Below, piece by piece: positions 44,372-62,585 of a stretch of 64,000 nt of DNA. The notes beneath the pieces are model-generated. The model had not been told where the DNA came from and did not search any database. It saw only the letters and a program-made list of their open reading frames with translations. This stretch comes from Sulfurospirillum oryzae (lineage in GTDB: Bacteria > Campylobacterota > Campylobacteria > Campylobacterales > Sulfurospirillaceae). The stretch's first letter is position 1, and each line of letters begins with the position of its first letter. The translations under genes and the position numbers were made by a program. Location of the stretch: the NCBI RefSeq assembly GCF_025770725.1, contig NZ_JANZKZ010000002.1, forward strand, positions 310,001 to 374,000. The letters run 5' to 3'.

Positions 44372-44373
44372 GA

Positions 44374-44565
44374 GCTATAAAAGAGCTGCTTAAAGATAGG
44401 CTGGCTGCTTATTATCATTGGGATAATGAACAATGCTTACAACAAGCGATATGGGTTACTCAACAAAATCAAGTAGATATGGAAGCCATTAAGCAATGGT
44501 CACTCAAAGAAAAATCAGAACAAAAATATTTAAATTTCTATCACAAACTTAAAATTAAAAATTAA
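44374..44565 (+). pseudogene. 3' remnant of a nucleotidyltransferase-associated (DUF6036-like) gene
   Basis: An open frame of 63 codons without a start: AIKELLKDRLAAYYHWDNEQ, then CLQQAIWVTQQNQVDMEAIK and a tail ending KLKIKN. The KDRLAAYYHW...QAxxV...IKQWSxKE pattern resembles the C terminus of DUF6036-type nucleotidyltransferase-like proteins, to my recollection. It lies on the right boundary of the kinase-TPR cassette. The first eight codons are shared with the mqsR-like remnant through the 24-bp repeat, so this is a recombination junction. The gap 44372-44656 otherwise holds only a short ATTACA/TGTAAT inverted repeat at about 44610-44626. Confidence 0.45.
44375..44398 (+). repeat. Right copy of the 24-bp repeat bounding the kinase-TPR cassette
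   Basis: Matches 41537-41560 at 23 of 24 positions. It starts 4 bases after the stop of the TPR gene. Confidence 0.8.
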
Positions 44566-44656
44566 CGCAATACTATTTCTGAGCTAGTCACTAGGAAATA
44601 TAAAGAACATTACACTATGATGTAATCGTTCATTTAAAGTAAATACTGAGGCAACA

Positions 44657-47600
44657 ATGTCAAACAATAGCACTCAAGAAGTGGAAGAAAAAGAACTGAA
44701 AAGACACAAATATAAAAGTTTAGCACCAACAATTTTATCATCTAAAGAAATTGCAAAAAAAGAAGAATACTTTAATATACTAGAAGATGCTTTAGATGAT
44801 GAAAATACAAATAATATAGCCATTACCTCACCATATGGTGGAGGTAAAAGTTCTTTTATTAGAACTTTTATTTCAATACAAGAAGATGAGGGAAAAGCAA
44901 AAAAAACAAATACACAAAATTTACCTCTTCTGCTCTTTGAAAAATTACATTTAAAAAAGTATAAATATAAGTTTTTACATATTTCACTTGCCTCATTTGG
45001 AGAAAAAGACAAAGAAGGCAATATTATTAACGCCGAGCAAGAGAGAATTGAAAAAAGTATATTAGAGCAAATGTTTTTTGGTGAGAAATGGAGTCACTTA
45101 AAACATTCTGGTTTTAAACGAATAAAAAATATCAATCCATTAATAATTATGATGCATTTAACTCTACTTATCTCATGGATTATTGTTTTTTTGTCTTTGT
45201 GGAATATAGGTATTTTAAATAGTTTTTATAAAATATTGACGCCTCCAGACATGTTCTTTTTTTCTATAATAATTGGATTTGTCATTCTTTCTTTAGGAGG
45301 ACTTCGCACATTATCAGAGTTAATTACTTATTTTAAAATCAAAAAACTAGTATTTTTTAAAGATGTTGAAATTGAGATAACTGGTGATGATAAATCCGTT
45401 TTAAATAGATATATAGATGAAATATTATATTTCTTTGAAGAAACAGAGTACAACGTAGTTGTCTTTGAAGATCTCGACAGATTTGAGAAACCAGAAATAT
45501 TTAGAAAACTAAGAGAGATAAATCTTATTATTAATAAATCAAGAGTTCTAAGAAAAAAACTTAAACAAGTTAGTTTCATTTATGCAGTAAAAGATGAAGT
45601 TTTTGATACTGAAGCAAGGACTAAATTCTTTGATTACATTATTCCTCTAGTGCCTGTTATCAGTTCCTATAATTCATATATAAAATTGAAAGAAGAACTA
45701 GGTACATTCCTTTATGATAAATCTAAAAAAAAGTCCATTTCTATAGACGATAAAAGAACACAAGGTCAAAAATATATTAGTAACCAGTTACTTAAAAAAA
45801 TATCTTATTATATAACCGATATGAGGCTGTTAATAAATATAACTAATGAATTTAGGCTTTACCATTCGCAATTAGATAGTACAATTATCATGGATCAGCT
45901 TCTATCTATTATCGTTTTTAAAAATATTATGTCAAGTGAATTTTCAAAACTGCAAAAAGATGAAGGCACTTTATTTTCTCTATTTAATAAAACAAAAGAC
46001 TTTATTATTGACAAGCAAATTGAAATAATAGATGCAAAGATTGCGAATCTTAAAAGAGAAATTACTGAAACACAAAATACATTTTTATTTAGTATTCAAG
46101 AGTTAAATAGCATTTATCTCATGGCTGTACAACAATCTACTAGAACCCTAAATACTATTTATAAAATCTATATTGAAGATGAAAAAGATTTTATTGACGT
46201 AACAGAACTTTTAAAAAATGCTGATTTCTTGCCAATAATATTTAAAAACAAAAATCTTCAATGTCAAGATTTATATAATAATTCTTTTTCAATAAGTCTT
46301 GATTTACAACAAATAGAAGAATATATACCATCAAAATTATCATATAGAAGCAGACTTGATCAGATAAATAATCAAACGTCGTTATCTGATATTCGAGATG
46401 AAATAGATGAACTAGAAAAACAAAAACAAGAACTAAAAGGATACAAATTAAGCCAAATACTGACTAGTCCTTTTTTCAAAGACTCAATGAATCAAATGAC
46501 CGAAAAAGAAAAAGAAACACAACTCCTTGAAAATCCTCTTATTAAAATACTTCTTCAAGATGGGCTTTTAAATGAACAATATCACACATTAATATCCTAT
46601 TTTATGACTACTGAGGGAGAATTACAACTACAAGACAAACAATTTTTAATGTGGGTATTACAAAGAGAGAAGAAAAAACTTTATGATTATCAGCTTACAA
46701 CACCAAATAAAGTTGCGGAAGAACTTCAAGAAGAAACGGTCATTCACTATAGTGTTTTAAATTTTGATTTATTTAATGAAATTTTATCCAATTTCGCTAA
46801 ATATTCAAAAATAGAAGCAGAAAATAAATCACTATTTACAAAATTTCTTACTGCTATAAAAGAAACAACAGATGAATATTTTGTGTCTTCCTATTTTGGA
46901 CATCTTCGAGAACTCAATAAGCAAAACGAAATCAATGAACATATAAAAATATTAGCAGAAAATTGGGATGGATTATGGAACTATTATGTACATGGATATC
47001 CTCCGGGAAGCATACATGACTTTTTGTACAAGCTTTTTGAAGTATGTTCAATTGAAACCATTAAAAAACAAGACTACGCTGGTAGAATTAAAAGACATAT
47101 TGAAAATGATTTAGATTTTGAAGTATTTTATCTTAGGAAGCATGATGATCAAAAAAAAGCTAAAGAGGCACAAGATAGACTTGTCGCTTTTTTGCAAAAA
47201 AACAATATTACTTTACTTAATTTAGGAAGATTAGCGGCGGATGAGCGATTACTACAAAAATTTTATGAATCTAACCTGTATATGTTAAATGCAAAAAATG
47301 TCTCAGTTATTCTTTCGGGACAAAATGCGACATATACTAATATTTTAAAATCACAAAAACAACAATTGATAGAACGAGTTAACAAAAATTTAAACAATTA
47401 TCTTAAAAATGAGCTTTTGGAAATAACCGATCCGTATGAAGACGCTAATGTTATGCTTGATCTTATAAATGCAGCTAAGATTACTGGTGGCATTGAGATT
47501 GAAAAAGATACCCTAGAATCTCTAATTAAAAAAAAGATTTTTTGTATCGACGATATTAATAAAGTCATGTGGGATGATAAAAAAATTATAGAAATCTTAT

Positions 47601-48526
47601 ATGCCAACAACAAAGTTTCATTCTCATGGAAAAATATTGTTTCTTATGCTGACAAAATATCTGATGGGCAAGTAGATGAAACATTATTCAGTTTTCTACA
47701 AAATAGTATTGAAAGCGGTACTCTACAAAAATATCCAGATAATGAAAATTTTGATAAAAAATTAGTGGATAAGTTGTTTTATAGTTTAATTAATGAGGAA
47801 AGTGACTATGTAGAAGAATATGATTTAACAAAATCATTAATGCTTTTATGCCCTCAATATAAATACCTTAGATCTGATTTTACAAAAATTGATGACAATA
47901 ATCTTAGATTGATTATTGAACTAGAACGAATAGAATTAACTCCTACTCATTTTGAAAGAATATGGGAAAAAGGAAGTCATAATAATGCAATTGAACTAAT
48001 AAAAAGGAATTTTGATTATTTTATAAAAAGAATTGATACCTATGATATAAATTCTGAACAATTAAAGAGCTTCCTTGATCAAAGCATCTTAATTGTCGAA
48101 CAAAAAGAAAAAATACTTCAAAAATTAGATAGTTCTTTAATTAGCAACCAAGATGAAGCGAAATCTATTTATAGATTTTTAACATCAAATAAATTTAATA
48201 ATTATTATAAATTTCATGCATGGATAATGCAAACGATATCTATGATTAACCATGGCAAGCTAAGCTTACAATTACTACTTTTAGAAATAAAATCTTTAAA
48301 TGAAAAAGAATTAAGAGATGCTTTGATATTGATAAAACACGAAAAAGATGTTTATTATCATATCGCAACATATGGGAAGGATCTCAGGAGAAATGATATA
48401 TATTTAGAGATTACTGACAATACAATGTTACTGATAACAGAACTTAAAAAGCGAAATATGATTTTAAATGTTATTGAACGTAAAAATTGTTATCGATTTA
48501 GTATTAAAATAAGAAATAAATTATAA
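44657..48526 (+). CDS. Large YobI-like/KAP-like P-loop NTPase
   Basis: A 1289-residue protein. The N-terminal segment RHKYKSLAPTILSSKEIAKK, followed by Walker A SPYGGGKSSF (K64), matches the YobI-type P-loop NTPases. Two membrane helices (about 161-186 and 199-218) are inserted before Walker B (NVVVFEDLDRFE, about 266-277), as in KAP-type NTPases. The remaining 900 or so residues are helical and charged with no motif I recognise; they could be a sensor or effector region. The gene is strongly AT-rich compared with its neighbours. It is followed after 9 bases by an ART-like gene, suggesting a two-gene system, probably defensive. Membrane-inserted P-loop NTPases of this type occur in phage-exclusion systems (PifA-like KAP NTPases). 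Confidence 0.72.
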   Translation: MSNNSTQEVEEKELKRHKYKSLAPTILSSKEIAKKEEYFNILEDALDDENTNNIAITSPYGGGKSSFIRTFISIQEDEGKAKKTNTQNLPLLLFEKLHLKKYKYKFLHISLASFGEKDKEGNIINAEQERIEKSILEQMFFGEKWSHLKHSGFKRIKNINPLIIMMHLTLLISWIIVFLSLWNIGILNSFYKILTPPDMFFFSIIIGFVILSLGGLRTLSELITYFKIKKLVFFKDVEIEITGDDKSVLNRYIDEILYFFEETEYNVVVFEDLDRFEKPEIFRKLREINLIINKSRVLRKKLKQVSFIYAVKDEVFDTEARTKFFDYIIPLVPVISSYNSYIKLKEELGTFLYDKSKKKSISIDDKRTQGQKYISNQLLKKISYYITDMRLLINITNEFRLYHSQLDSTIIMDQLLSIIVFKNIMSSEFSKLQKDEGTLFSLFNKTKDFIIDKQIEIIDAKIANLKREITETQNTFLFSIQELNSIYLMAVQQSTRTLNTIYKIYIEDEKDFIDVTELLKNADFLPIIFKNKNLQCQDLYNNSFSISLDLQQIEEYIPSKLSYRSRLDQINNQTSLSDIRDEIDELEKQKQELKGYKLSQILTSPFFKDSMNQMTEKEKETQLLENPLIKILLQDGLLNEQYHTLISYFMTTEGELQLQDKQFLMWVLQREKKKLYDYQLTTPNKVAEELQEETVIHYSVLNFDLFNEILSNFAKYSKIEAENKSLFTKFLTAIKETTDEYFVSSYFGHLRELNKQNEINEHIKILAENWDGLWNYYVHGYPPGSIHDFLYKLFEVCSIETIKKQDYAGRIKRHIENDLDFEVFYLRKHDDQKKAKEAQDRLVAFLQKNNITLLNLGRLAADERLLQKFYESNLYMLNAKNVSVILSGQNATYTNILKSQKQQLIERVNKNLNNYLKNELLEITDPYEDANVMLDLINAAKITGGIEIEKDTLESLIKKKIFCIDDINKVMWDDKKIIEILYANNKVSFSWKNIVSYADKISDGQVDETLFSFLQNSIESGTLQKYPDNENFDKKLVDKLFYSLINEESDYVEEYDLTKSLMLLCPQYKYLRSDFTKIDDNNLRLIIELERIELTPTHFERIWEKGSHNNAIELIKRNFDYFIKRIDTYDINSEQLKSFLDQSILIVEQKEKILQKLDSSLISNQDEAKSIYRFLTSNKFNNYYKFHAWIMQTISMINHGKLSLQLLLLEIKSLNEKELRDALILIKHEKDVYYHIATYGKDLRRNDIYLEITDNTMLLITELKKRNMILNVIERKNCYRFSIKIRNKL

Positions 48527-48535
48527 CTATTTGAA

Positions 48536-49159
48536 ATGAAACAAAAAATAATTAAAAATAAGATTTTAGATATATTTTCATTCCTCCCTTTTGGAGGTGC
48601 AAAACAATCAGATAAAGAAGATTTCTTTACCTCTGAATATCTAATAATGGGTCATTTTACTTCATCCTTTTTACTAACTAATATTTTAAAAGAGGGTTTA
48701 CAACCTCCAAGTGTTACAACTATTTTTAGTAATGCTGAACAAAGTAAACCAGGAGATGAAAAAAACATATATCTTATTGGACATATTGATGATATTTATA
48801 GTCAAAATGCTGTAAAAAAATATGGGGGAGAAGAAATATTGATTCTTGTGCAAATTAAAAGAGAAAATATAGAACTTGATGATTTCCTTAACCACTATTC
48901 TTCAAGAGGAATAATGACAAATTCACAAGAAGAGATTTATGAAGTTTTTTCACAAACTATAAGCCCAGAATGTTGTACAAAAATAGGCATTAGTCCTAAC
49001 CAAATCATAGAAGTTTTAGATGTTAATAAAATAAGAAAACATACAAGAAACATAGTCCCGATAAAAAATAGAGTACACATGAACATGAATGATTTGTTAC
49101 TCCATGGCATTAATATAGAAAAATTAAGATATGCCTACAAACATCATTGCATAGTATAA
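48536..49159 (+). CDS. ADP-ribosyltransferase-like protein, tentative
   Basis: A 207-residue protein. The segment MGHFTSSFLLTNILKEGLQP (residues 38-57) has the H-x-T-S ... N-I-L-x-x-G-L pattern that opens many ADP-ribosyltransferase folds (DarT, KptA and related toxins). Y79 in NIYLIGHI and a glutamate near 132-136 (SQEEIYEVF) would complete an H-Y-E triad with H40. This is a weak, motif-based assignment. No ribosome site is obvious; the ATG at 48536 follows the NTPase stop by 9 bases, so translation may be coupled. Likely role: effector or partner of the NTPase. If the triad is real it would modify a protein or nucleic acid with ADP-ribose. Confidence 0.4.
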   Translation: MKQKIIKNKILDIFSFLPFGGAKQSDKEDFFTSEYLIMGHFTSSFLLTNILKEGLQPPSVTTIFSNAEQSKPGDEKNIYLIGHIDDIYSQNAVKKYGGEEILILVQIKRENIELDDFLNHYSSRGIMTNSQEEIYEVFSQTISPECCTKIGISPNQIIEVLDVNKIRKHTRNIVPIKNRVHMNMNDLLLHGINIEKLRYAYKHHCIV

Positions 49160-49168
49160 AGGATATGA

Positions 49169-50293
49169 ATGCTTAAATCTGTAGGCGGAAAATATGAAGG
49201 CGTGTGGATAAACGAACTTAAAAATGGAGATGTAAGCTATTATATCAATTATCGAGATGCCGATGGTAAACCTACACGAACATTAGTTGGTAAAAAAACT
49301 TCTGCTAGTGATTTTACTGCTAGAGATGCATATGCAAAACTTATTGAAGTTAAATACAAATTACAGCACGAAGAAGCACCGAAAATATCTGCTGGTAGAG
49401 TTAAAAAAGTAAAATTTGATGATATTTGGGGTAAATACCTTGAATGGGCTAAAAATAATAAAAAAAGTTGGCAGACTGATTCATGGAATTATGAGAAACA
49501 CTTAAAGCCATTTTTGGGAAATAGAGCAGTCAAAGAGATTAAAAGTACAGACTTCGAATCATTTAAAACTGAAATGGCTTCTAAAACAAACGCTAAGGGT
49601 GTAAAAATCTCAAACGCAACTGTAAAGCATCAGTTAGTGCTAGCTCGCCATATTGTCAACTATGCGCTCAAAAATGACCTAATCAAGGATTATACTAATC
49701 CTATCGCAAATGGTCGAGTTAGAATGCCTCAAATTGATAATGCAAGATTAGCTTTTTTAACAAAAGAACAGGCCAAAGAATTACTTGAAATATTGTGGAC
49801 ATTAGATCGACAAACTTATCATCTAACTAAAATTTTACTGCTTACTGGTGCACGTTTAGGCGAAGTCACATCACTTCGATGGCAAGATATTAATTTTGAT
49901 ACAAATACGATTTTCTTTAAGAAGACGAAACGAGGTAATGAAAGGCATATTTATATAAACGATAGTCTTATAGAAACTCTTAAAGAGCTATCAGAAAATC
50001 AAAAAAGTGATTTAATCATTAGCACTTCAACGGGAGGTCAATTACTTAAAATGCCAGCTCATTTTGATACGGCGATTGAAGCTGTGATACCAGGTAATAA
50101 AAATAAAGAGGCTAAACAAAAAATCACAGCTCATAGCTTGAGACATACTCATGCTAGTTGGCTCGCAATTAGTGGACTTGATATCTTACAAATTAAAGAG
50201 CAGTTAGGACATAAAACAATTGAAATGACAATGAGATATGCCCATTTGATACCAAACAAAAGACATGAAGCAACAAAAATGATTAATATCTAA
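49169..50293 (+). CDS. Tyrosine recombinase (phage-type integrase)
   Basis: A 374-residue site-specific recombinase. Catalytic residues are R229 (TGARLGEVTSLRW), H322 and R325 (HSLRHTHASW), H348 (LGHKTIEM) and Y357 (MRYAHL). A SAM-like core-binding domain lies at about 80-190, and an N-terminal arm-binding-type domain at 1-60. AAGGA precedes the ATG. It should catalyse integration into and excision from the tRNA-Leu site. Unusually, it is about 8 kb from the left end and 13 kb from the right end, not next to the tRNA. Confidence 0.93.
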   Translation: MLKSVGGKYEGVWINELKNGDVSYYINYRDADGKPTRTLVGKKTSASDFTARDAYAKLIEVKYKLQHEEAPKISAGRVKKVKFDDIWGKYLEWAKNNKKSWQTDSWNYEKHLKPFLGNRAVKEIKSTDFESFKTEMASKTNAKGVKISNATVKHQLVLARHIVNYALKNDLIKDYTNPIANGRVRMPQIDNARLAFLTKEQAKELLEILWTLDRQTYHLTKILLLTGARLGEVTSLRWQDINFDTNTIFFKKTKRGNERHIYINDSLIETLKELSENQKSDLIISTSTGGQLLKMPAHFDTAIEAVIPGNKNKEAKQKITAHSLRHTHASWLAISGLDILQIKEQLGHKTIEMTMRYAHLIPNKRHEATKMINI

Positions 50294-50310
50294 AAATATC
50301 TAAAAACTTT

Positions 50311-50712
50311 TTATCCTAATGTTCGGTCAATAGAGCGTGCAGGTTGCGCTTTAGGACGACGAATATAATTCGATGCTCCATCTTTTGACAGATTATCTTG
50401 TTCTACAAAGCCAGAAGCATCAACCACTTGAAAGAAATATTCCCCATTAGGTTGTGTAACCTTCAAAACAAAAAGACCATTAATGGGTCCATCAACAAGG
50501 GTATAAGTTGTTTTGTTTTTAAGTAAAATCGCAAATTGTTTTGTGATTTTATAATATTTTTTTTCATATTTATAAGTTATTATTAAAAGCGAATCATAAG
50601 GAGTAGTAGAAGAATCATTAAAAACAAGTTCTTCTGCTATAAAGAACGCTATTTGATTTTCATCTAGGTTTGTAACTTCATATTCTTCAATTTCTAAATT
50701 TTCATTTTCCAT
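50311..50712 (-). CDS. Hypothetical protein downstream of the regulator
   Basis: A 133-residue protein with an acidic N terminus (MENENLEIEEYEVTNLDENQ) and a basic, disordered-looking end (YIRRPKAQPARSIDRTLG). No motif is recognised. It begins immediately after the stop of the HTH gene (TAAATG), so it is co-expressed with it. It converges with the integrase gene. Confidence 0.6.
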   Translation of the reverse strand: MENENLEIEEYEVTNLDENQIAFFIAEELVFNDSSTTPYDSLLIITYKYEKKYYKITKQFAILLKNKTTYTLVDGPINGLFVLKVTQPNGEYFFQVVDASGFVEQDNLSKDGASNYIRRPKAQPARSIDRTLG

Positions 50713-51420
50713 TTACTTTGCTCCATTGGAGAGATGAATTAGCTTATCTAAGATGAGTATAGCATTTTTATCTTCTGTACTATAAACAAAATTATGAAAT
50801 GCAATCATTTGCTGCTTAAAATATTTATTAAAAATATGCTCATACGAGTTTGCAATGAGAGCCTGATGATAATAATCAAATTCTTGCAAATTGACAACTG
50901 TATTAGTATAGTCAAGCATAGAATTGGAAGGATAGTCTTTTAACATATAGTTTTCATCTGATGGCTCTATTAAAACACTTATATTTATAGAGTTTAAAAA
51001 ATCAAGTAAATGTGTTTGTATAGTTGTTTTGATATATGCATATTCATTAAAATCAAGACAAGAAAAATAAAAATCATGAAAATTTTCTATTTTTTGTAAT
51101 TCATTGAATAAGTTTAAGTTGTGCGTATAGTTATTAAAACTGTTCTGAATAGATACATTAATATTTTTATGTAAATACAAAAAGACAATATAAGTATCAA
51201 TAAAATTAATATTTTGTAATTGTTTAATAGTGTTATTATAAAGTAAATCTGCAATTTTTATATTTTCAAGTTTTTGCATTTTACCAGTTTGTATAAATTC
51301 TTCTAATTCTTCTTTTTTAAAATATTTTAGGAAAAAACTCAGTCCTCTTTTTTCTTCTTTTTTCCAATTCGAAATTGTATTTTGATGAACATCAAAAAGC
51401 TTAGATATTGTCTTTTGCAT
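50713..51420 (-). CDS. HTH-containing regulator-like protein
   Basis: A 235-residue protein. The N terminus MQKTISKLFDVHQNTISNWK, followed by KEEKRGLSFFLKYF, looks like a helix-turn-helix of the type in mobile-element regulators of Campylobacterota. The rest is Asn/Ile/Phe-rich and helical. The start at 51420 has AAAGG upstream; the frame is open to 51471. It is transcribed away from the operator/promoter region and is the best candidate for its repressor. Confidence 0.6.
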   Translation of the reverse strand: MQKTISKLFDVHQNTISNWKKEEKRGLSFFLKYFKKEELEEFIQTGKMQKLENIKIADLLYNNTIKQLQNINFIDTYIVFLYLHKNINVSIQNSFNNYTHNLNLFNELQKIENFHDFYFSCLDFNEYAYIKTTIQTHLLDFLNSINISVLIEPSDENYMLKDYPSNSMLDYTNTVVNLQEFDYYHQALIANSYEHIFNKYFKQQMIAFHNFVYSTEDKNAILILDKLIHLSNGAK

Positions 51421-51432
51421 CAAATTACCTTT

Positions 51433-51547
51433 ATTTGTTATTTTGATATTGTAATTATACAAAAAAATCAAAAAATTTGTTATTAGATATTGACAAATAA
51501 AAAATATTGGTATAAAATTCTATTAATAAATACTAAAAATAACAAAT
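51433..51547. promoter_or_regulatory. Operator region with three perfect copies of ATTTGTTATT
   Basis: The 144-bp divergent gap holds two direct copies (51433-51442, 51475-51484) and one inverted copy (AATAACAAAT, 51538-51547). The first two are followed by GATATTG after one or two bases, so the repeated unit is longer. The inverted copy lies on the other side of the promoter. Confidence 0.6.
51490..51518 (+). promoter_or_regulatory. Predicted sigma-70 promoter of the mobilisation operon
   Basis: TTGACA (51490-51495), 17 bases, TAAAAT (51513-51518), about 47 bases before the ATG at 51565. It lies between operator copies two and three, so binding there would block it. It probably transcribes the plus-strand genes from 51565 onward. 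Confidence 0.6.
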
Positions 51548-51564
51548 ATTGTTAAAGGCTAGAG

Positions 51565-51807
51565 ATGAATGATAGACAATTAATTTGTGAAATGCTTGTA
51601 AATCGATATGGAATGAGTTTTGACATAGCAACTCTTGCAAAAGCGATAGGTGTAAGTAAATCAAAGTGCGATCAATTTTTTATGAAATTTAGCGACGAGC
51701 AAGTTATAAAAAACAATATTCTGCCTCGTTTTAAAAAAATTGGTAGGCGTCGTATTTGGACTGCCATGTCAGTAGCATCTTGGCTTTGTGAAACTGAGAA
51801 GGCTTGA
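51565..51807 (+). CDS. Small HTH/excisionase-like DNA-binding protein
   Basis: An 80-residue protein. FDIATLAKAIGVSKSKCDQF is a helix-turn-helix-like segment, and FKKIGRRRIWTAMSVASWLC is a winged or basic C-terminal part. Such proteins serve as excisionases or early regulators in integrated elements. It is the first gene of the plus-strand operon and overlaps the next gene (TGATG). The exact role is unknown. Confidence 0.65.
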   Translation: MNDRQLICEMLVNRYGMSFDIATLAKAIGVSKSKCDQFFMKFSDEQVIKNNILPRFKKIGRRRIWTAMSVASWLCETEKA

Positions 51808-52496
51808 TGATGACAACTCCAAAAGCTTTTTTGCATCCTACTAATTTTAGACACGAAATACCAGTTAAGCGCTTGATGAATGATTTGCCTGGAGGTATTG
51901 GATATGGTGTCGCAATGCTTGTCATCGAAACCCTTGCAGGACAGCCTGACATGAGATACCCAGCCGAAGCAGTTGATCTTCTTGCACATGATATAGGAGT
52001 TAGTATACCAATACTAAATACCGTCTTAACGACGTATGGACTTTTCGAAGAAGTTCGCGACGAAAATGGTAAAAGCTATATATGTCCAAGTCTGAATATA
52101 TGGCAAGAACCATATCTTAAAAAAGTAGAGATAAATAGCTTACGAGGGAAAAAAAGTGCAATAAAAAACCAACTTAGGCTTCAATTGCAAATCGATGAAT
52201 TAAATCACACTTTGAGTTCAAGCGACTCAAGTCAACAATTAATTAATAAAATAATCAATAAAAAAATAAAAAATAAATCTCTTAACGGCGAAACAAGAGA
52301 GTTAAAAGCACACCTAATAGACAAATATAATAATACTAATGCAAAATGGGAAGGTGTAGCAGGTTATAAAAGTCTATCTATAATAAATGGCTACCTGCAC
52401 AATAACGTAACAGGTAAAGATTTGGCCCCTGAGGCAGCAATTGAGGCGTGGGGAAAGCTTGCACAGCAATACGCAACAGAAGGAGCTAAAAAATGA
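51807..52496 (+). CDS. Helical protein with Lin1244/DUF4373-like N terminus, replication-type, tentative
   Basis: A 229-residue protein. The first 110 residues (NFRHEIPVKRLMNDLPGGIG ... VSIPILNTVLTTYGLFEEVR) resemble the Lin1244/Lin1753-type winged-helix domain found in DnaD/replication-initiator-like proteins of mobile elements. The C-terminal half is Lys/Asn-rich and ends in a helix (APEAAIEAWGKLAQQYATEG). It could be a replication accessory protein for the excised form; no origin was identified. It overlaps the next gene by 4 bases. Confidence 0.45.
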   Translation: MMTTPKAFLHPTNFRHEIPVKRLMNDLPGGIGYGVAMLVIETLAGQPDMRYPAEAVDLLAHDIGVSIPILNTVLTTYGLFEEVRDENGKSYICPSLNIWQEPYLKKVEINSLRGKKSAIKNQLRLQLQIDELNHTLSSSDSSQQLINKIINKKIKNKSLNGETRELKAHLIDKYNNTNAKWEGVAGYKSLSIINGYLHNNVTGKDLAPEAAIEAWGKLAQQYATEGAKK

Positions 52497-55400
52497 TAAA
52501 AACACTCCTTATATTGATAATCTTTTTATCAATTGCAAATGCTGCCGAATGTTCATACCAATATGTTTATCAACAAAAATTAATTTTTGATAAGACTGGA
52601 AATTCACAATCAGAATGTGATGCCATTAAAGCTGAAAAAGAAGCTCTTGTTGTACAATATGAAGGGACAGCATCCTCATCTGCAACAAATAGTAGTGATT
52701 CAGGAACATCATCTAGCAGTACAACTTCATCTGGTGCATCTAATACGACTACTGCAAAGACTACATCGAGTAGTGCATCTTCATCAAGTGGACAGTCAGT
52801 CAATACAACGGGTGGATGCGGAATGCCTCCATCATTCTTAAGGTCATCAGATGCAATGTCTTTTTCTGGAAACACTTTAAACAAGGGACTTAGCTCTGTA
52901 CAACAAAGCGATTTTGATAATGTTGCTTTTAAAAGTGGTGATTCAGGGAATTTTTCAGGATTTACTTGTCCCCAAGCTTCAGAAATAAAAGATGCAACAT
53001 TTCCTAAAAATCTTGTTTCTGAAGATGGACAAAAAGCATATTCTGTAAAAATCACAGGTATAAATTTTTACACAGGTGCATATACATGTGAGTATAGCTT
53101 TTTAAAATCAAAAACATTTTATACCGTAAAAAGAGTTAATAAAGCATGCGCACAAGACGCCGAAGCAATCAATAAGGCAATTGCAAAAGGTGATATAAAC
53201 GCCCTTCCTAACCTTACATATAGCCAGAACTATGGTATGCATACTTTCAACGAAGGTACGATCAATGCATCGGATGAGTTTAAACAAACATATTCAAACC
53301 TTTTAAAAGGAATTGCTGATTTAAGCAAATCCGAATCACAAGTTGCCCCAGTTGATGTTGGCGGTTCTTTGGATTCTCACAGCAACCACACGAATACATT
53401 ACCTTCTTTATTCTTGGGTATTTTAACTGGCGATATGGAATTTTTAGACAACCCTGTTATTGATGCTAGCGGTAAAATTAGAATTCGTAATACCTCTGTT
53501 AATTCTTCTCCAATAGAAGTTACAGACCTTAATTCACTGCAAGATAAGTTTGTTTCGGTTTTTAAAAGCCTTGATGCTCAATTCTGGGGATTTTATTATT
53601 ATCTAATTGCCAACATATCTCACGCTTTTAATCATATCGTTACGATGATTTTTGGACTTGGCACAGTAGGAATATTCGGTTACGCGTTTTTTAGACGCTC
53701 AATTGATCGAGACAAAGAATCTGGGGCTCAATTTCAATTTGATTTTAAAAACAATTTTATCTCAGCAATAAGTGCACTCATTTTATTTACTGCACCTATT
53801 ATTCCTGCTGACAAAGGAATCCCAAGCGCATTTCTATATCAGCCTTCTACGGCTCCTTCTGCTGCCCAACAAGAAGAAATCCTAAAAAACGCTACTGTTG
53901 TTCAAGTCGGTGTGCGTTATATCTTCCAGCTTGGAACTTATTGGGCAAACTTAATTCATGATTATTCGATGTTTGCTTATTTAAAATTTATTAGTGCTTC
54001 GTATGGCTATTACGATGCAAGTGAAATGAAGAAAAACTTTAAAGATGACATGTCAGAGTTTGTAACAAAAAGCGTACTTTTAAAAAAAGAAATGGACTTT
54101 TTTGAAAAAAGTTGTGGATCAAATTACTATTCTCATCTCTCAAGCAATCATTCATTGCCAGATTACTATGGTGGTGTTGATACAAACATTAATTATTTAA
54201 AAGATAACCCACTTGGGTTTGATAGTGTTGATTATGGCACATGCGCTGCAATGTTTCAAAAAATGCAACAAGCGAGTAGTGATAACTTTGTTAAATACAA
54301 AGAAATTATTAAGGGTTATAACGCAGCTTCTGACAATATGCAATCTTTTCTTGATAGTGATATGGAGGAAATTAATGGCTTCCTTACTGCAATTGTTAAT
54401 ATTAGTAATAAGTTAGGATGGGTTAGTGTAGCTCTTGTCCCTAGTATTACAGACATCCTAGAAACAAAAAAAATATTTACATTTTCAAAGCGAAGTGAGA
54501 ATAATGAAATTATTGATGCTGTTGGAAAGATGGAAGTACAAAAAGTTGATTTGGTAAAACGAAATGAATTAGAAGCAGGAAAAAGCCAAGCAATTAAAGA
54601 AGATGTAAATGTTGAAAACAGCAGCGATAACTGGAGATCAATAAAATCTTTTATTGACAAAATCGATGGTATGAGTGGAAAAATTGGAATCGGTGTTGGT
54701 TGGACAATGGGGCAAGCTATTTCAGGCTTTGGTTATTTTATGTTTCCAGGTTTTGGTGAACTTTATGCAGGCATTGAAAAAACTACAATACCAATGGCTC
54801 TAGCGAGTGCAACAACTAATGCAGCAAGCTCTTTAATCAAATTTATGCCTTCTGGTGCAAATTTAATTATTAGAGGAATCACAAAACTCGAAAAACTTGA
54901 AATTATAAAAGAAACAAAAGCACAAGATGGGAAAAATATAGTAACTTTTCTAATTACTTATATAATTTGTCTATTTTTGTATATTACATTATTTTCTATC
55001 TTTGCAGTTGCGCTCGTAACACTGTTAACAATCTCAAAAATAATTTACTATTTCATTGAGGTCATTATTGCTGTTTTTATTTCAACGGCAGTAATGCTTT
55101 GGGGACTCATTTTTGATAAAACAAGTTCTTCTTCAACAATTGGTGAATTCTTTTATAAAATTGTCTTATTGGCGCTATCTCCTATAAGCATCGTTCTTTC
55201 CATTTATGCCTTTTTATTCGCTAAAGGCGCAATGTTATGGCTGTACCGCCTGATTGCAGAATTTATATTGTTTTCATCCAAAAATATTATTCTGAAATTG
55301 GACTCAAAAAATGAAGGTATTTCAAATTTTACTGGGATAGATAACATCTTAGCAGGAATACAAGCATATGGTGTCTATAACATGGGTGAGATGCTCTTAG

Positions 55401-55552
55401 TTTTCTTCTCAATTTTTATTGCTTACACGATTATTATGCATTTTCATGACTGGGTTCTAAGTTATTTTGGTCATAAAGGAGGTAGTGCGGTACAAAAAAG
55501 TTTAAATAACGTCTTTAGTGACGTAAAACACAAAGCGACAACAAGAATTTAA
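52493..55552 (+). CDS. Large TraG-N/VirB6/DotA-like conjugation membrane protein
   Basis: A 1019-residue exported membrane protein. It has a signal peptide (LLILIIFLSIANAAECSYQY) and then a Ser/Thr-rich low-complexity stretch (about 60-105). A periplasmic domain with several Cys follows. Two membrane segments lie at about 375-445 (IVTMIFGLGTVGIFGYAFF; ISALILFTAPIIP), and a cluster of five or more hydrophobic helices at about 815-1000 (YIICLFLYITLFSIFAVALV; ISIVLSIYAFLFAKGAMLWL; VFFSIFIAYTIIM). This layout is like TraG N-terminal or DotA/VirB6 proteins of conjugation machines. It is the only channel-like protein in the element. Confidence 0.6.
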   Translation: MIKTLLILIIFLSIANAAECSYQYVYQQKLIFDKTGNSQSECDAIKAEKEALVVQYEGTASSSATNSSDSGTSSSSTTSSGASNTTTAKTTSSSASSSSGQSVNTTGGCGMPPSFLRSSDAMSFSGNTLNKGLSSVQQSDFDNVAFKSGDSGNFSGFTCPQASEIKDATFPKNLVSEDGQKAYSVKITGINFYTGAYTCEYSFLKSKTFYTVKRVNKACAQDAEAINKAIAKGDINALPNLTYSQNYGMHTFNEGTINASDEFKQTYSNLLKGIADLSKSESQVAPVDVGGSLDSHSNHTNTLPSLFLGILTGDMEFLDNPVIDASGKIRIRNTSVNSSPIEVTDLNSLQDKFVSVFKSLDAQFWGFYYYLIANISHAFNHIVTMIFGLGTVGIFGYAFFRRSIDRDKESGAQFQFDFKNNFISAISALILFTAPIIPADKGIPSAFLYQPSTAPSAAQQEEILKNATVVQVGVRYIFQLGTYWANLIHDYSMFAYLKFISASYGYYDASEMKKNFKDDMSEFVTKSVLLKKEMDFFEKSCGSNYYSHLSSNHSLPDYYGGVDTNINYLKDNPLGFDSVDYGTCAAMFQKMQQASSDNFVKYKEIIKGYNAASDNMQSFLDSDMEEINGFLTAIVNISNKLGWVSVALVPSITDILETKKIFTFSKRSENNEIIDAVGKMEVQKVDLVKRNELEAGKSQAIKEDVNVENSSDNWRSIKSFIDKIDGMSGKIGIGVGWTMGQAISGFGYFMFPGFGELYAGIEKTTIPMALASATTNAASSLIKFMPSGANLIIRGITKLEKLEIIKETKAQDGKNIVTFLITYIICLFLYITLFSIFAVALVTLLTISKIIYYFIEVIIAVFISTAVMLWGLIFDKTSSSSTIGEFFYKIVLLALSPISIVLSIYAFLFAKGAMLWLYRLIAEFILFSSKNIILKLDSKNEGISNFTGIDNILAGIQAYGVYNMGEMLLVFFSIFIAYTIIMHFHDWVLSYFGHKGGSAVQKSLNNVFSDVKHKATTRI

Positions 55553-57526: not shown

Positions 57527-60394
57527 ATGCTTTCAATTGCAAATATGAATAGCGCGCAAGCGGCTCATTATCATGCAAAAGATCAAAACTACTATCAGCA
57601 AAATAAAGAGACAAGCGTTTGGGCTGGCAAAGGTGCTGAACGTTTAGGCTTGAGCGGTGAAATAGATATCAAAAAATTTGAGCGATTATGCTTTGGTATT
57701 CATCCTTGCGAAGAACGCACTCTTGTTGATATCAGTGAAAGAGCGGGAACGGATCTAACCTTTTCTGCTCCAAAATCCGCATCGATCTTATGTGAATTAG
57801 GTGATGAACGTACCAATCAACTCATACGTGCAGCACATGATCAAGCGGTGCAAACCACACTGTCATTTGTAGAAGATCATTATGCGCAAACAAGAGAACA
57901 AAAGGACGGGCATAGAGAAGCAATCTCAACCGGTAATCTCATCATCGCTAAATTTCAACACGATACCAGTAGAGAAAATGACCCATCATTGCATACGCAT
58001 TGCTTTATCGTCAATGCAACGCAGAAGGAGAACGGTGAATGGAGAGCGTTGCACAATGATAAGCTCTTCACTCACAAGATGTTTTTAGGTCAGACGTATC
58101 GCAATGAATTGGCCAAAAATCTTCGAGACCAAGGATTTGCTATTGAGGTTACAAATGCCAAAGAGGGATTCTTTGAAATTCAAGGTGTTTCCAAAGAGCT
58201 GATCAGTGAATTTTCACAAAGGCGTGAGCAAGTCCTCGAGAAATACGAGGAGCTAAAAAAGCAATATCCTGGTCTCGAGGGAGAAAAACTCAAAGAGATG
58301 GCAACAACCGGCAGCCGAAACGTGAAAGATAAAAACGCTGATCGTAACGTCATTAAATACAACAATATCGAAAGAGCCAAAACCATTGTCACCGGTAAAG
58401 ATTTGACCTATCTCAATCAGCTTAATAGCTCACATGCCAATCATGAACATCAAAAATTAACGGCTAAAGATGCGGTGGATCTTTCGATTCGTATTCAAAG
58501 CGAAAAGACGAGTGTATTTAATCGTGAAGATGTGATGAAAAACGCAATGAAGCTTTCGTTAGGCGAACATTCACTGAGTGCTATGCAGAATGCTTTTGAT
58601 GATCATGTAAATGAGCGATCGATTGTGCAATTGGATCAAAATGCCTACTCTACACCAGAGCTCTTGCAAAAGGAGTTTGAGATTGTTGCAATGGCAAAAA
58701 ACCGCACAGATCCTTTAATCTCTGCTCAACGCGTGGAGCAGTATCTAAGCCATACGCCTTATAGCCTCACAAAAGGACAACAAGAAGCGTATGCACACAT
58801 TCTCTCAAGCAATGAGTCTATTTCAGTGATCCAGGGCGATGCTGGTACGGGTAAAACGTTTATGCTCAAAGCCGTTAGAGAAACGCTTGAAAGTCAAAAA
58901 CAAAGTAGCAATCTACGAGGACTCGCTTTTACTGGAAAAGCCAGTGAAGAGCTTGAGCGTGAAAGTGGTATCCCCTCTACGACGTTACACGCCTTTTTTG
59001 TGAGTCCACCGGCGGAAAAGAATATGGTTTATATCGTAGATGAGGCGTCAATGGTCAGTTCGTTACAGATGCACCACTTATGTGAGATTGCTAAAGAAAA
59101 CCATTCAAAAATTGTGTTTATCGGTGATCAAAAGCAGTTCCAATCTCTAGGTGCTGGCAATATGTTTTCGCAGCTTCAAAAGCAAAGTGATATTCGTATC
59201 GTCGAAATGACTGAGAATAAACGCGCGCAAACAGAATTGATGCGATCGCTTTATTCGTCTATCAAGAGCAAGGATTTAGAAGAGGCGTTTGGCATTTTAG
59301 AAAAGCACCAACGCCTTCATGAAACAACGGATCTCGAGAGGATCAAAAACGAATACCTCAAAGATCGTCATGATACGTTACTCTTGGTTGATACAAACGC
59401 GAATCGTAAAGCTTTAAATGAGTTAATCAGAGCGGATCTCGTCGCTCAAAATGAAGTCACACAGTCTCAACCGTTATCTATCAAAGAGGCAATCAATCTA
59501 AACGAGATTGAAAAACACTACTCGAGCAATTATCAAGTAGGTCAAATTGTTGTCGCACAAAATGCGTTTCAAGGATTTAGTGCCGGGCAAGAAGGGATGA
59601 TCACCGCGATTGATCATCCATCCAATACGATCACGGTTACCAAAGATGAGCAAAGGATCAAAATTGATCTAAGCAAAGCTCACGCTCAAGCAATTCAAAC
59701 TTTTGCTATCAAAGAAAAAGCATTTGGTGTCGGCGACAAAATCGTTTTTACAAAAAACAATCGAAACCTCAAGTTTAGAAATGGTGAGGCCGCTGTGATC
59801 CAAGCAATTCATGGGAATATCATCAAAGTGCAAAAGGGAAATAAAGAGTTGGCGTTTGATGCTTCCAAGTATCCTTATATTGATCATGGATACGTGATTA
59901 CAGCGCATAAAAGCCAAGGTCAAACTACTAGTAGGGTTATCGCTTTCACGAATGCACAAATGGCCAATTTAAACCGCTTCTACGTGCAAATTACCAGGGC
60001 AAAACGTGATGCCTTGATCTATACCAACAGCATAGCAACACTCAAGGAGAATACACAAAAAACGCAAATCAAAACAAGTACCCTAGATTATTTTAGGTCG
60101 GCAATGCAGCATGAGGCACATACAAATCACAATTACGAAAGGACATTCAATGAGCAAAAAGAACGAAGAATATCAAGAGGATCAACTCTTTCAATACTGG
60201 GAGACTATTGCACAAAGCTCAAAATTGCACTCGCAGATCTTAGCCGACATTTTGGCATATTTAAAGGAGATCGACGAGAGATTGAAAGCACTCGAGGCAA
60301 AGATCAAATGAAAAATATCTTAATTGATAATGTTAAACAAAACAATAAAAATATAAATCGAGAGCAAACTTTGGAGAAAAAAAGGAGCCGCTAA
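57527..60394 (+). CDS. MOBF family relaxase-helicase (TrwC/TraI type)
   Basis: A 955-residue conjugative relaxase fused to a RecD-like helicase. The relaxase start (AAHYHAKDQNYYQQNKETSV, then WAGKGAERLGLSGEID) aligns well with TrwC of R388. Catalytic tyrosine candidates are Y15, Y22 and Y23. The three-histidine metal site is in FQHDTSRENDPSLHTHCFIV. The helicase has Walker A GDAGTGKT at 437-444, Walker B YIVDEASMVSS, and the late motif AHKSQGQTTS. It cuts oriT, stays bound to the 5' end and unwinds DNA. The ribosome site is weak. Its last 245 bases also carry the nested ORF at 60150. Confidence 0.93.
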   Translation: MLSIANMNSAQAAHYHAKDQNYYQQNKETSVWAGKGAERLGLSGEIDIKKFERLCFGIHPCEERTLVDISERAGTDLTFSAPKSASILCELGDERTNQLIRAAHDQAVQTTLSFVEDHYAQTREQKDGHREAISTGNLIIAKFQHDTSRENDPSLHTHCFIVNATQKENGEWRALHNDKLFTHKMFLGQTYRNELAKNLRDQGFAIEVTNAKEGFFEIQGVSKELISEFSQRREQVLEKYEELKKQYPGLEGEKLKEMATTGSRNVKDKNADRNVIKYNNIERAKTIVTGKDLTYLNQLNSSHANHEHQKLTAKDAVDLSIRIQSEKTSVFNREDVMKNAMKLSLGEHSLSAMQNAFDDHVNERSIVQLDQNAYSTPELLQKEFEIVAMAKNRTDPLISAQRVEQYLSHTPYSLTKGQQEAYAHILSSNESISVIQGDAGTGKTFMLKAVRETLESQKQSSNLRGLAFTGKASEELERESGIPSTTLHAFFVSPPAEKNMVYIVDEASMVSSLQMHHLCEIAKENHSKIVFIGDQKQFQSLGAGNMFSQLQKQSDIRIVEMTENKRAQTELMRSLYSSIKSKDLEEAFGILEKHQRLHETTDLERIKNEYLKDRHDTLLLVDTNANRKALNELIRADLVAQNEVTQSQPLSIKEAINLNEIEKHYSSNYQVGQIVVAQNAFQGFSAGQEGMITAIDHPSNTITVTKDEQRIKIDLSKAHAQAIQTFAIKEKAFGVGDKIVFTKNNRNLKFRNGEAAVIQAIHGNIIKVQKGNKELAFDASKYPYIDHGYVITAHKSQGQTTSRVIAFTNAQMANLNRFYVQITRAKRDALIYTNSIATLKENTQKTQIKTSTLDYFRSAMQHEAHTNHNYERTFNEQKERRISRGSTLSILGDYCTKLKIALADLSRHFGIFKGDRREIESTRGKDQMKNILIDNVKQNNKNINREQTLEKKRSR
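60150..60311 (+). CDS. Small coiled-coil protein nested in the relaxase gene (53 residues)
   Basis: A frame shifted against the relaxase, starting MSKKNEEYQEDQLFQYWETI and ending LKEIDERLKALEAKIK. It has a good ribosome site (AAAGGACATTCA) before the ATG, and its amphipathic heptads are more typical of a real protein than the relaxase reading of the same bases. The frame extends upstream to 60111 but the inner ATG fits better. An overlap of this size is unusual, so this is a candidate, not a certain gene. Confidence 0.5.
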   Translation: MSKKNEEYQEDQLFQYWETIAQSSKLHSQILADILAYLKEIDERLKALEAKIK

Positions 60395-60795
60395 TGCACT
60401 GCCTATTTTACTATGAAGATTATCTTATAGTGTGCACTGCTACTAAAATTTCAAATACTGATCTATTAAGACAATGTACTTCACTCATATTGTCTAAAAC
60501 ATATTGCGATATCTGTACGTTAAAGCAGGGGAGTGTAAAAAAAATTGCTCTTTTATCAACTACAAAATCTGATATTAAACTTTCTTTTTATCGATTACCA
60601 AATGGCTTTCTTGATACATTGCCATATCAAGAAACTGAGTTGATTATAGAATCTATCATTCAGCAACACAAGCTAGCAATTAGTAATAAAGATAACTCTA
60701 CATCTGTTTTACAGGATAAAGATATTTTTAAAATCTATTTTGACATGTTAAATGTTGTCGATGCAAAATTTATGAAAATCTATACTGGAGAGTGA
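60394..60795 (+). CDS. Hypothetical protein after the relaxase
   Basis: A 133-residue protein with several cysteines near the N terminus (MHCLFYYEDYLIVCTATKIS, SKTYCDICTLKQGSVKKIA). No family is recognised and no membrane segment is clear. The ATG overlaps the relaxase stop (TAATG), so it is translated with the relaxase. Base composition returns here to the AT-rich type of the other element genes. Confidence 0.65.
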   Translation: MHCLFYYEDYLIVCTATKISNTDLLRQCTSLILSKTYCDICTLKQGSVKKIALLSTTKSDIKLSFYRLPNGFLDTLPYQETELIIESIIQQHKLAISNKDNSTSVLQDKDIFKIYFDMLNVVDAKFMKIYTGE

Positions 60796-60798
60796 AAC

Positions 60799-61017
60799 AT
60801 GATTATGGAAATTCTAAAAACTATTGTAGGTATTATAAACAAGATTAGTGGTATCGGCAAAGAAACAAATCACGAAGTGGCAGAAGATGAAGAAAATGCT
60901 GAGAAAAGAGATTGTGAAGAAGAATTAGAAAAAAAGTCAGACAATGAATATAAAAATATTCTCATTGGCAAAAATCAAGCACATTTACAACAAAATCATT
61001 CTTTGACAAGGTACTAG
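60799..61017 (+). CDS. Small acidic hypothetical protein
   Basis: A 72-residue protein with a short hydrophobic N terminus (MEILKTIVGIINKISGIG) and an acidic, disordered-looking middle (EVAEDEENAEKRDCEEELEK). It lies 3 bases from its neighbours on each side. No function can be inferred; it may be an accessory to the coupling protein that follows. Confidence 0.55.
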   Translation: MIMEILKTIVGIINKISGIGKETNHEVAEDEENAEKRDCEEELEKKSDNEYKNILIGKNQAHLQQNHSLTRY

Positions 61018-61019
61018 AC

Positions 61020-62585
61020 ATGAGAATAGAGACAGCAACTTTTTTAATTCTGATAGCTGCTAATACGATAATATCTTACCAAGTTCAAAAAGAATTGGGC
61101 ATTCATAAAGCTCTTATTTTTACAATACTGAGTTTTTTTGAGTACATTATTTGGCATATGTTCATTAGAGAATACTCAAAAATAAACGATAGACTTTTTG
61201 ATGTCAAAAGTTGGCTTATGGGCAGCTATGCAAACTTTTATGGGCAGAGTGAGGGCAACAGGTGGACACCTTCATGGTTAGTAAAACAAAAGATGAAAAA
61301 TGGAGATCTTTTCATTGACAAATTTAGGTTTGATGGAAGTGTATTAAGAAATTTCAAATTTTTTAGTTTCAAAAAATGGTTTAATAATTTTGATTGTTAC
61401 ATGATTCCTTCTGATTTAAAAAAAGGTGGAATTGTTTTCGGAAGCATGGGCGCTGGAAAAACAGAATTGTTTCATTCGATTCTATCTCAACCAGAATTTG
61501 ATAGAAAATTTATATATGACAGTAAAGGCGATTTTACTCAGAAACATTACAGATCAAATAGAGATATTATTTTGAATCCATATGATGCCAGAGGGCATGT
61601 TTGGAATCCGTTTGAAGAAGCCAATACAAGTCCTTTTGTTGTTGGTATATTTATGACAAATCTATTTAACGCAATTGCTGGAGATAAAAAAGATTTCTTT
61701 AGTGCAGGTTCACAAGACCGTTACATGGAATTATTTAATAGCATTCAATATATGGATTCTAAACTGACAGCAAAACAAAAATTTGATTTATTTATTAAAC
61801 TTTTAAAAGAGTATTTTGAAGCACCTCAAACACAATCACGCACAAGTGAAGCAGATATAGCAAGCACGATGAAGCTTTCATTTGAATTTTTTGATTATAT
61901 GAATTTTTGTATTCAAAATGGAAGTCCAACTTTTACAATTCACAATTATTTATCACAAAAAAATTGTGACCTATTTTTACTGTCAAGAGATGATCAAAAG
62001 TCAAAATTAACAGCATTTTTTACTGGATTTTTAGCTGCATTCGTGGCTGTCATGTTGTCTCAAGAAGATAGAGATTCTTTAACCCTTTTAGCTCTCGATG
62101 AGTATCTTTCTTTTGTAAGGAATATGGATAGCGAAACAATCGAAAGTTTGCATGTAAGAATTCGAAGTAAAGGTGGTTGTCTTCTGCCTGGAGTTCAATT
62201 TTTTCCTGATGATCATTTATCCGACGGTCTTACTCAGAAAATATTAAATTCTACAACTTATTGGTTTTTATTCCAGGGCATTGATGAATACACATTAAAT
62301 AAAATTGGTTCTACTGTAGGTAAAGTCAGATATAAAAAAGAACAAGCTAAAGATATTCGTGCTGAACGCTTTGCTAATAAAGATTACTCCATTGAAGAAT
62401 CTGACTTGCTCAATATTAGTATTTTTCATTCATTGGGAGAAAAATACGAACACATCACATTTATACCATCGAGGAAAATTTTATATAAAGGGTATACGCC
62501 ACAAGTCAAACTGAAAAATAGAAATGAGAGCTTTATTCAGAGTGAGAATATTGCTAAATTTTATCAACAAAAGTCGAGAGCTTGA
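61020..62585 (+). CDS. VirD4/TraD-like type IV coupling protein
   Basis: A 521-residue membrane ATPase that brings the relaxase-DNA complex to a mating channel. Two N-terminal membrane helices (ATFLILIAANTIISYQVQ, ALIFTILSFFEYIIWHMF) are followed by Walker A GSMGAGKTELF at about 140 and Walker B LLALDEYLSF near 360. SLHVRIRSKGGCLLPGVQFF is the region after Walker B. The protein is shorter than TraD. No VirB4-type ATPase lies with it, so it probably uses a channel provided by another element. Confidence 0.85.
   Translation: MRIETATFLILIAANTIISYQVQKELGIHKALIFTILSFFEYIIWHMFIREYSKINDRLFDVKSWLMGSYANFYGQSEGNRWTPSWLVKQKMKNGDLFIDKFRFDGSVLRNFKFFSFKKWFNNFDCYMIPSDLKKGGIVFGSMGAGKTELFHSILSQPEFDRKFIYDSKGDFTQKHYRSNRDIILNPYDARGHVWNPFEEANTSPFVVGIFMTNLFNAIAGDKKDFFSAGSQDRYMELFNSIQYMDSKLTAKQKFDLFIKLLKEYFEAPQTQSRTSEADIASTMKLSFEFFDYMNFCIQNGSPTFTIHNYLSQKNCDLFLLSRDDQKSKLTAFFTGFLAAFVAVMLSQEDRDSLTLLALDEYLSFVRNMDSETIESLHVRIRSKGGCLLPGVQFFPDDHLSDGLTQKILNSTTYWFLFQGIDEYTLNKIGSTVGKVRYKKEQAKDIRAERFANKDYSIEESDLLNISIFHSLGEKYEHITFIPSRKILYKGYTPQVKLKNRNESFIQSENIAKFYQQKSRA

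Follow-up and report, generated by a model that had tools for sequence, protein, structure and literature searches.

The window considered here is a stretch of 64,000 nucleotides from Sulfurospirillum oryzae (contig NZ_JANZKZ010000002.1, positions 310,001 to 374,000), and within it a relaxase gene carries, wholly inside its 3' end and on the same strand, a small candidate gene in another frame. The features needed for the discussion, all on the forward strand, are the following:

57527..60394, + strand: TrwC/MobF relaxase-helicase gene, host of the nested gene; 955 aa, with Pfam and NCBIfam matches
60138..60149, + strand: Shine-Dalgarno-like AAAGGA with spacer, 5' of the nested ATG, seen in the sequence; AAAGGACATTCAATG in 6/6 close genomes
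60149..60394, + strand: C-terminal tail of the relaxase, the closing 81 codons plus stop, which span the nested gene and continue past it; weakly conserved, frame apparently kept open
60150..60311, + strand: nested gene of 53 codons plus stop, +1 relative to the relaxase frame; its product is predicted to be a single helix
60312..60386, + strand: break in similarity to close relatives just past the nested stop, from nucleotide identity to the close relative L016 and the alignment of six
60394..60795, + strand: 133-aa ORF without a Pfam match, its start codon overlapping the relaxase stop as TAATG
60799..61017, + strand: 72-aa ORF with weak similarity (20/57 residues) to a 61-aa ORF that the distant relative L054 has at this place
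61020..62585, + strand: type IV coupling protein (TrwB/TraD-like); Pfam TrwB_AAD_bind 94.9 bits (cut-off 20.5)

The relaxase and helicase domains of the host protein both score above curated cut-offs (Pfam TrwC 287.5 bits against 25 and AAA_30 157 bits against 27; NCBIfam MobF 263.6 bits against 100), which places it in the MOBF (TrwC) family; S. diekertiae JPD-1 (L017) is among its best-matching named loci, and all five of the closest genomes belong to the same genus. The nested ORF starts at relaxase codon 875, directly 3' of AAAGGACATTCA, and closes with 83 bases of the relaxase gene left, relaxase stop codon included, so that the position, frame and length of 53 residues given in a preliminary description of this DNA are confirmed. 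A longer reading of 66 codons from an upstream ATG at 60111 exists, and the Shine-Dalgarno sequence together with the alignment to L054 favours a start at 60150 rather than there. The length of the ORF was dropped as evidence for a gene: the longest +1 ATG ORF in the relaxase gene (68 codons) lies elsewhere, and one at least as long arises in 57.5% of 2000 synonymous-codon shuffles that hold the relaxase protein fixed (P=0.575). The preliminary description had also proposed an amphipathic helix, of which the helix is supported by prediction and the amphipathicity is not supported: AlphaFold2, given an alignment of four near-identical rows, predicts one helix over residues 3-52 (mean pLDDT 93.8), and the maximal helical hydrophobic moment, at 0.48, does not clearly exceed that of shuffled sequences (mean 0.39, P=0.16). 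No family in Pfam or NCBIfam reaches its cut-off with the nested proteins, and a structure model of the full-length relaxase was unusable (mean pLDDT 35.1).

The substitution patterns come from a close set of six genomes, the window's own and five others with relaxases 93-94% identical (94-96% over residues 1-870). The nested start, Shine-Dalgarno sequence and stop are intact in all six, contrary to any loss of the start or interruption of the frame that would have weakened the candidate, and identity between the nested protein and its counterparts in the five relatives is 94-100%. In the 162-nt overlap the variable columns fall on relaxase codon positions 1, 2 and 3 as 12, 7 and 0 (of 54 each), against 9, 8 and 53 (of 200 each) in the 600 nt just upstream, the contrast at third positions (0/54 versus 53/200) having a Fisher P of 8e-7. 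At least 20 mutations are needed to explain the overlap; read in the nested frame they comprise 8 nonsynonymous and 12 synonymous changes (neutral mean 15.7 and 4.3, P=0.0001), and read in the relaxase frame 20 nonsynonymous and 0 synonymous (neutral mean synonymous 5.2). The nested-frame changes are moreover conservative, with a BLOSUM62 sum of +10 against a neutral mean of -9.1 (P=0.0027), whereas those in the relaxase frame are not (-14 against -10.9, P=0.34). None of the six genomes varies over the opening 53 bases of the overlap (the first variable column is 60203), and that part therefore contributes no codon signal. Position pattern, synonymous excess and conservative changes in the nested frame together mean that the nested protein is what selection sees: purifying selection works on the nested frame, and in the close set the overlapped part of the relaxase tail gives no sign of amino-acid constraint, which answers in favour of the nested frame the comparison of both frames that the preliminary description had raised.

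That description had called complete same-strand nesting rare, a view that does not hold for this group in a survey of 24 full-length MOBF relaxase genes of Campylobacterota (the window, L016-L018, L054-L068 and L096-L100; the short relaxases L069-L071 and the fragments or truncated matches L014, L015 and L019-L021 stand outside it), since 17 of them have a +1-frame nested gene with a Shine-Dalgarno-like motif near the relaxase 3' end, and the nesting of IncP TraH is known. Fourteen encode a short helical protein, each preceded by such a motif (the six close ones, L054, L055, L056, L060, L066, L098, L096 and L097), five encode a Cys-rich TraH-like protein (L057, L058, L063, L096 and L097), and seven have no accepted nested gene (L059, L061, L062, L064, L065, L099 and L100). 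Mechanically found candidates in L061, L064 and L099, and a third one in L097, were discarded by eye; the locus survey listed downstream ORFs, as the alternative arrangement, above 60 aa; and the nested-ORF scan is imperfect, having recovered the TraH-like ORF in three of four MOBP/TraI controls and missed it in L074. The relaxase tree contains one clade of 16 rows (support 92/94, below the tree tool's own star), all 16 of which have a nested gene, with L066 outside it. A coupling protein lies downstream of the relaxase in 14 loci including the window, 13 of which carry a nested gene, the one without an accepted nested gene being L061; it lies upstream in L059 and L099, neither with a nested gene, and was not found within the examined stretch in the remaining eight. 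Beyond the phylum, 14 MOBF relaxase genes (R388, two IncN, IncU and ten others) gave no ORF recognisable by eye as one of the helical or TraH-like family; mechanical ORFs with a Shine-Dalgarno-like motif present in 9 of the 14 (at least one each, some past the gene end) were all discarded by eye, so that absence there is provisional.

Two of the surveyed genes, L096 and L097, hold a tandem +1 nest within a single MOBF relaxase gene, the helical gene first and then a TraH relative, with AAAGGAG upstream of each:

L096: relaxase codons 892-953 (helical) and 986-1088 (TraH relative)
L097: relaxase codons 894-955 (helical) and 988-1090 (TraH relative)

Their helical genes differ at five sites, spread over all three codon positions, a pair too similar for a selection test.

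How far the helical proteins are related to one another can be read from searches and shuffle controls. Against 397 Campylobacterota genomes, the best match of the window protein beyond its own clade (in genome G008, E=0.0015) sits inside the 3' end of that genome's own relaxase gene. The window protein matches L054 at 22.6 bits, L054 matches L056 at 20.0 and L055 matches L056 at 76.5, each with 0/200 shuffles as good; the direct comparison of window and L056 is weak (11/200), and by pairwise similarity the window, L054, L055 and L056 form one family joined through L054. With the window protein as query, L096 scores 6.9 bits (1/200 shuffles as good), L066 4.9 (10/200), L060 3.0 (40/200) and L098 2.6 (62/200), L097 having been left out of this control. 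L060 and L098 make a pair of their own at 41 bits, and L060, L098 and L066 do not stand out as homologues of the window protein: out of 200 shuffles 10 to 100 do as well, according to the pair and the direction compared, and the resemblance may come from a common helical composition. A profile search of the 397 genomes gave matches in 10 (E<=0.01), of which 7 are strong and all at known nested places, the profile having been built from several of those same seven, and the remaining three, weak ones with E from 8e-4 to 0.008, fall in open frames 410-707 aa long. Weak matches of the window protein in 16 other genomes (E 0.011-0.098), mostly in long open frames and two with internal stops, were set aside, and neither the window protein nor the helical protein of L096 had a tblastn match in plasmids.

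The relaxase frame that runs across these genes poses a separate question. When nested codons are drawn at the upstream relaxase's usage, and bearing in mind that nested ORFs were sought inside open relaxase frames so that openness is a condition of all such figures, the probability of an uninterrupted relaxase frame is 0.0006 in the window, 0.0001-0.0072 in the three close relatives tested, 0.0024 in L054, 0.0003 in L055, 0.0001 in L056, 0.04 in L066 and 0.03 in L063; it is 0.00015 for the helical gene of L096, 0.00125 for that of L097 and 0.00005 for the TraH-like gene of L097, and 0/20000 draws remain open in L057, L058, L060, L098 (0.00005 in a partial run) and the TraH-like gene of L096. 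Over 12 nested genes, T-ending nested codons occur at 0/189 places where a relaxase stop would result and at 94/366 elsewhere. Permuting the nested genes' own codons makes the open frame look ordinary (P=0.20 in the window, 0.03-0.74 over the set), because the bias already sits in the nested gene's choice of codons. In the L067/L068 lineage two changes to T (60275 and 60284), each of which alone would create a relaxase stop, are paired with a neighbouring change that avoids it, two cases in one lineage. As far as can be judged from such comparisons, the relaxase frame across the nested gene is kept open. Nine related tails (the window's own not among them) have an Arg fraction of 0.07-0.16 against 0.03-0.06 in their relaxase bodies, and it is speculation to see in the Arg-rich tail a docking or transport element.

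Past the nested stop the window parts from its relatives. Identity to L016, counted per 40 nt, falls from 39/40 (60267-60306) to 27/40 (60307-60346) and 9/40 (60347-60386), and the break is visible against all five close relatives, in which the coupling-protein ORF follows the relaxase in place of the window's 133-aa ORF. The window's coupling protein is 61-62% identical to those of the five, and that of L016 is 94-98% identical to those of the other four. Similarity ends soon after the nested stop and the coupling protein is a different one, so the nested gene keeps company with the relaxase, which speaks for a partner in the relaxosome. As an observation on the region as a whole, 60307-62585 differs from the close relatives in the end of the relaxase tail, two extra small ORFs and a divergent coupling protein.

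A search of the window's genome for a VirB4-type ATPase (PF03135, TIGR02746) found none, the PF03135 control being positive in 1/14 genomes. With a relaxase and coupling protein and no such ATPase found, the element may be no more than mobilisable, with another element mobilising it, or may rely on a divergent apparatus. Elsewhere in the window, 41673-55552, around an integrase gene (49169-50293), contains a protein-kinase-like gene, a 1289-aa YobI-type NTPase-domain protein and a 1019-aa protein with no Pfam match, genes that are possibly cargo such as defence genes.

What, then, is the nested ORF? It might be a chance frame in an AT-rich relaxase tail, conserved on account of the relaxase frame or of constraint on the DNA itself, and both its length, which chance alone would supply, and the invariant opening of the overlap would fit; but the changes cluster at nested third positions, all 20 are nonsynonymous in the relaxase frame and conservative in the nested one, and one relative shares 41% of residues in the nested frame (n=49) against 18% in the relaxase frame over those columns. 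The codon-position and substitution analysis largely refutes this, and I hold it to be extremely improbable; that 60150-60311 is a selected gene and, as I infer, a translated one is by the same sequence comparisons nearly certain. One might alternatively suppose that the relaxase once stopped before a small gene and ran on through loss of its stop, leaving a neutral overlap and a junk tail, since similarity to distant relaxases ends at about residue 853-881, close to the nested start, and the tail lacks amino-acid constraint in the close set. Nesting in every row of a deep clade, the relaxase frame open across nested genes (P 0.04 to below 5e-5) and the avoidance of T-ending codons at would-be stops, the latter two conditioned on openness, stand against such a history, which I judge quite improbable.

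A more serious contender, though still rather unlikely, is a real nested gene whose product has the coupling protein as its target, or else serves in entry exclusion, anti-defence or regulation. Among the 14 loci with a downstream coupling protein, 13 have the slot between it and the relaxase, the predicted single long helix would suit an adaptor, and the lack of any family match puts few limits on function; however, the window's coupling protein has diverged far more from those of its close relatives than the nested protein has, the same slot is occupied by TraH relatives in other loci, and nothing in the results points to a regulator. On balance I find it likelier that the short helical product is, taking the statement whole, a TraH-like relaxosome accessory protein made in cis with its relaxase, a reading that takes in the selection on the nested frame, the open relaxase frame, the relatives in the same slot and the TraH relative that uses it. 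Once translated, the protein would attach to the relaxase-oriT complex, or to the relaxase tail, and stabilise it for handover to the coupling protein, and nesting would have it produced from the relaxase mRNA, in cis and in fixed proportion to the relaxase; an accessory protein tied to relaxase levels, as the preliminary description had suggested, is plausible by analogy. A broader generalization, which I advance tentatively at slightly less than even odds, is that the MOBF relaxase 3' end in Campylobacterota is a dedicated dual-coding slot for exchangeable relaxosome helpers (the new helical proteins, relatives of TraH also present in MOBP and MOBQ genes, or one of each in tandem), with the open Arg-rich tail as if the helper's partner.

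These considerations matter beyond one locus. The nested gene is very probably an overlooked helper of DNA transfer between bacteria, a function that I infer. If it is true that short nested relaxosome genes are the rule throughout a clade of MOBF relaxases, the parts list of transfer systems is incomplete; the overlap offers a compact case of dual coding in which one frame is strongly constrained and the other merely kept open; and it shows one slot, in relaxases of different MOB families, being used by unrelated proteins. Searches of an open-access library, which lacks most subscription papers, brought up no description of a nested gene in a MOBF relaxase, of the helical family or of the double nest, and older work may exist.

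Nested accessory genes within relaxase genes are nevertheless a known kind. MobB of RSF1010/R1162 and MbeB/MbeD of ColE1 are encoded by small mobilisation genes that overlap the relaxase gene in another frame, like the window's, their relaxases belonging to other MOB families. Auxiliary proteins of the TrwA/TraM/TraY type bind DNA and come from separate genes, not nested ones, unlike the window's. They are named, for R388 and F, as accessory proteins of MOBF relaxosomes in a passage of PMC12857230, and the title of a reference in PMC3297438 states that the transport signals of the R1162 relaxase require MobB.

The nearest parallel is TraH. A passage of PMC7314908 describes RP4 TraH as stabilising the TraJ-TraI-oriT complex and as encoded in another frame within traI, and an excerpt of PMC3614916 gives R751 traH as 130 aa, the length of an ORF found here at codon 515 of R751 traI. 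The gene table of that record (L079, 48797-51040), stated to be incomplete, lists traI without a nested traH although the 130-aa ORF is intact and the literature lists traH, so automatic annotation can miss nested same-strand genes. With the Cys-rich nested protein of L057 as query 781 plasmid records were matched, and among 30 matches listed a relaxase is annotated under 25, a hypothetical protein under 4 and nothing under 1; tblastn with the TraH-like protein of L096 matched 710 records, including the annotated traH of pAKD17 (E=3e-8), and of 40 listed matches spread along the ranking a relaxase or traI is annotated at 32, with traH named at two of these (H181, H186). A TraH-like stretch was also seen in the +1 frame of a mobQ relaxase gene in the E. 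coli plasmid pMB9880_4 (L101:1390-1593). With relatives in traI, mobQ and the surveyed MOBF genes, TraH-like genes are therefore nested in MOBP, MOBQ and, as found here, MOBF relaxase genes. A search for solved structures of TraH-like proteins gave none, the best match (E=0.78) being named as a coiled-coil hexamer design.

The window protein, as query, scores at most 0.5 bits against TraH-like rows and lacks the family's Cys motif (in A2 the invariant C51, C54-P55, W59, C68, C70 and C88-D89). As the helical proteins have no sequence similarity to TraH, a shared function is argued from position and from the two tandem cases. The TraH-like ORFs of L057, L058, L063, L096 and L097 share with the window the relaxase clade (by the tree), the slot and the frame, and belong to a different protein family. 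IncP TraH (RP4, R751, pAKD17) is Cys-rich and lies in a MOBP relaxase gene, whereas the window protein is helical, without Cys and in a MOBF gene; yet in both a small gene lies fully inside the relaxase gene, in the +1 frame and on the same strand, and in IncP the coupling-protein gene comes next, as traG does in pAKD17.
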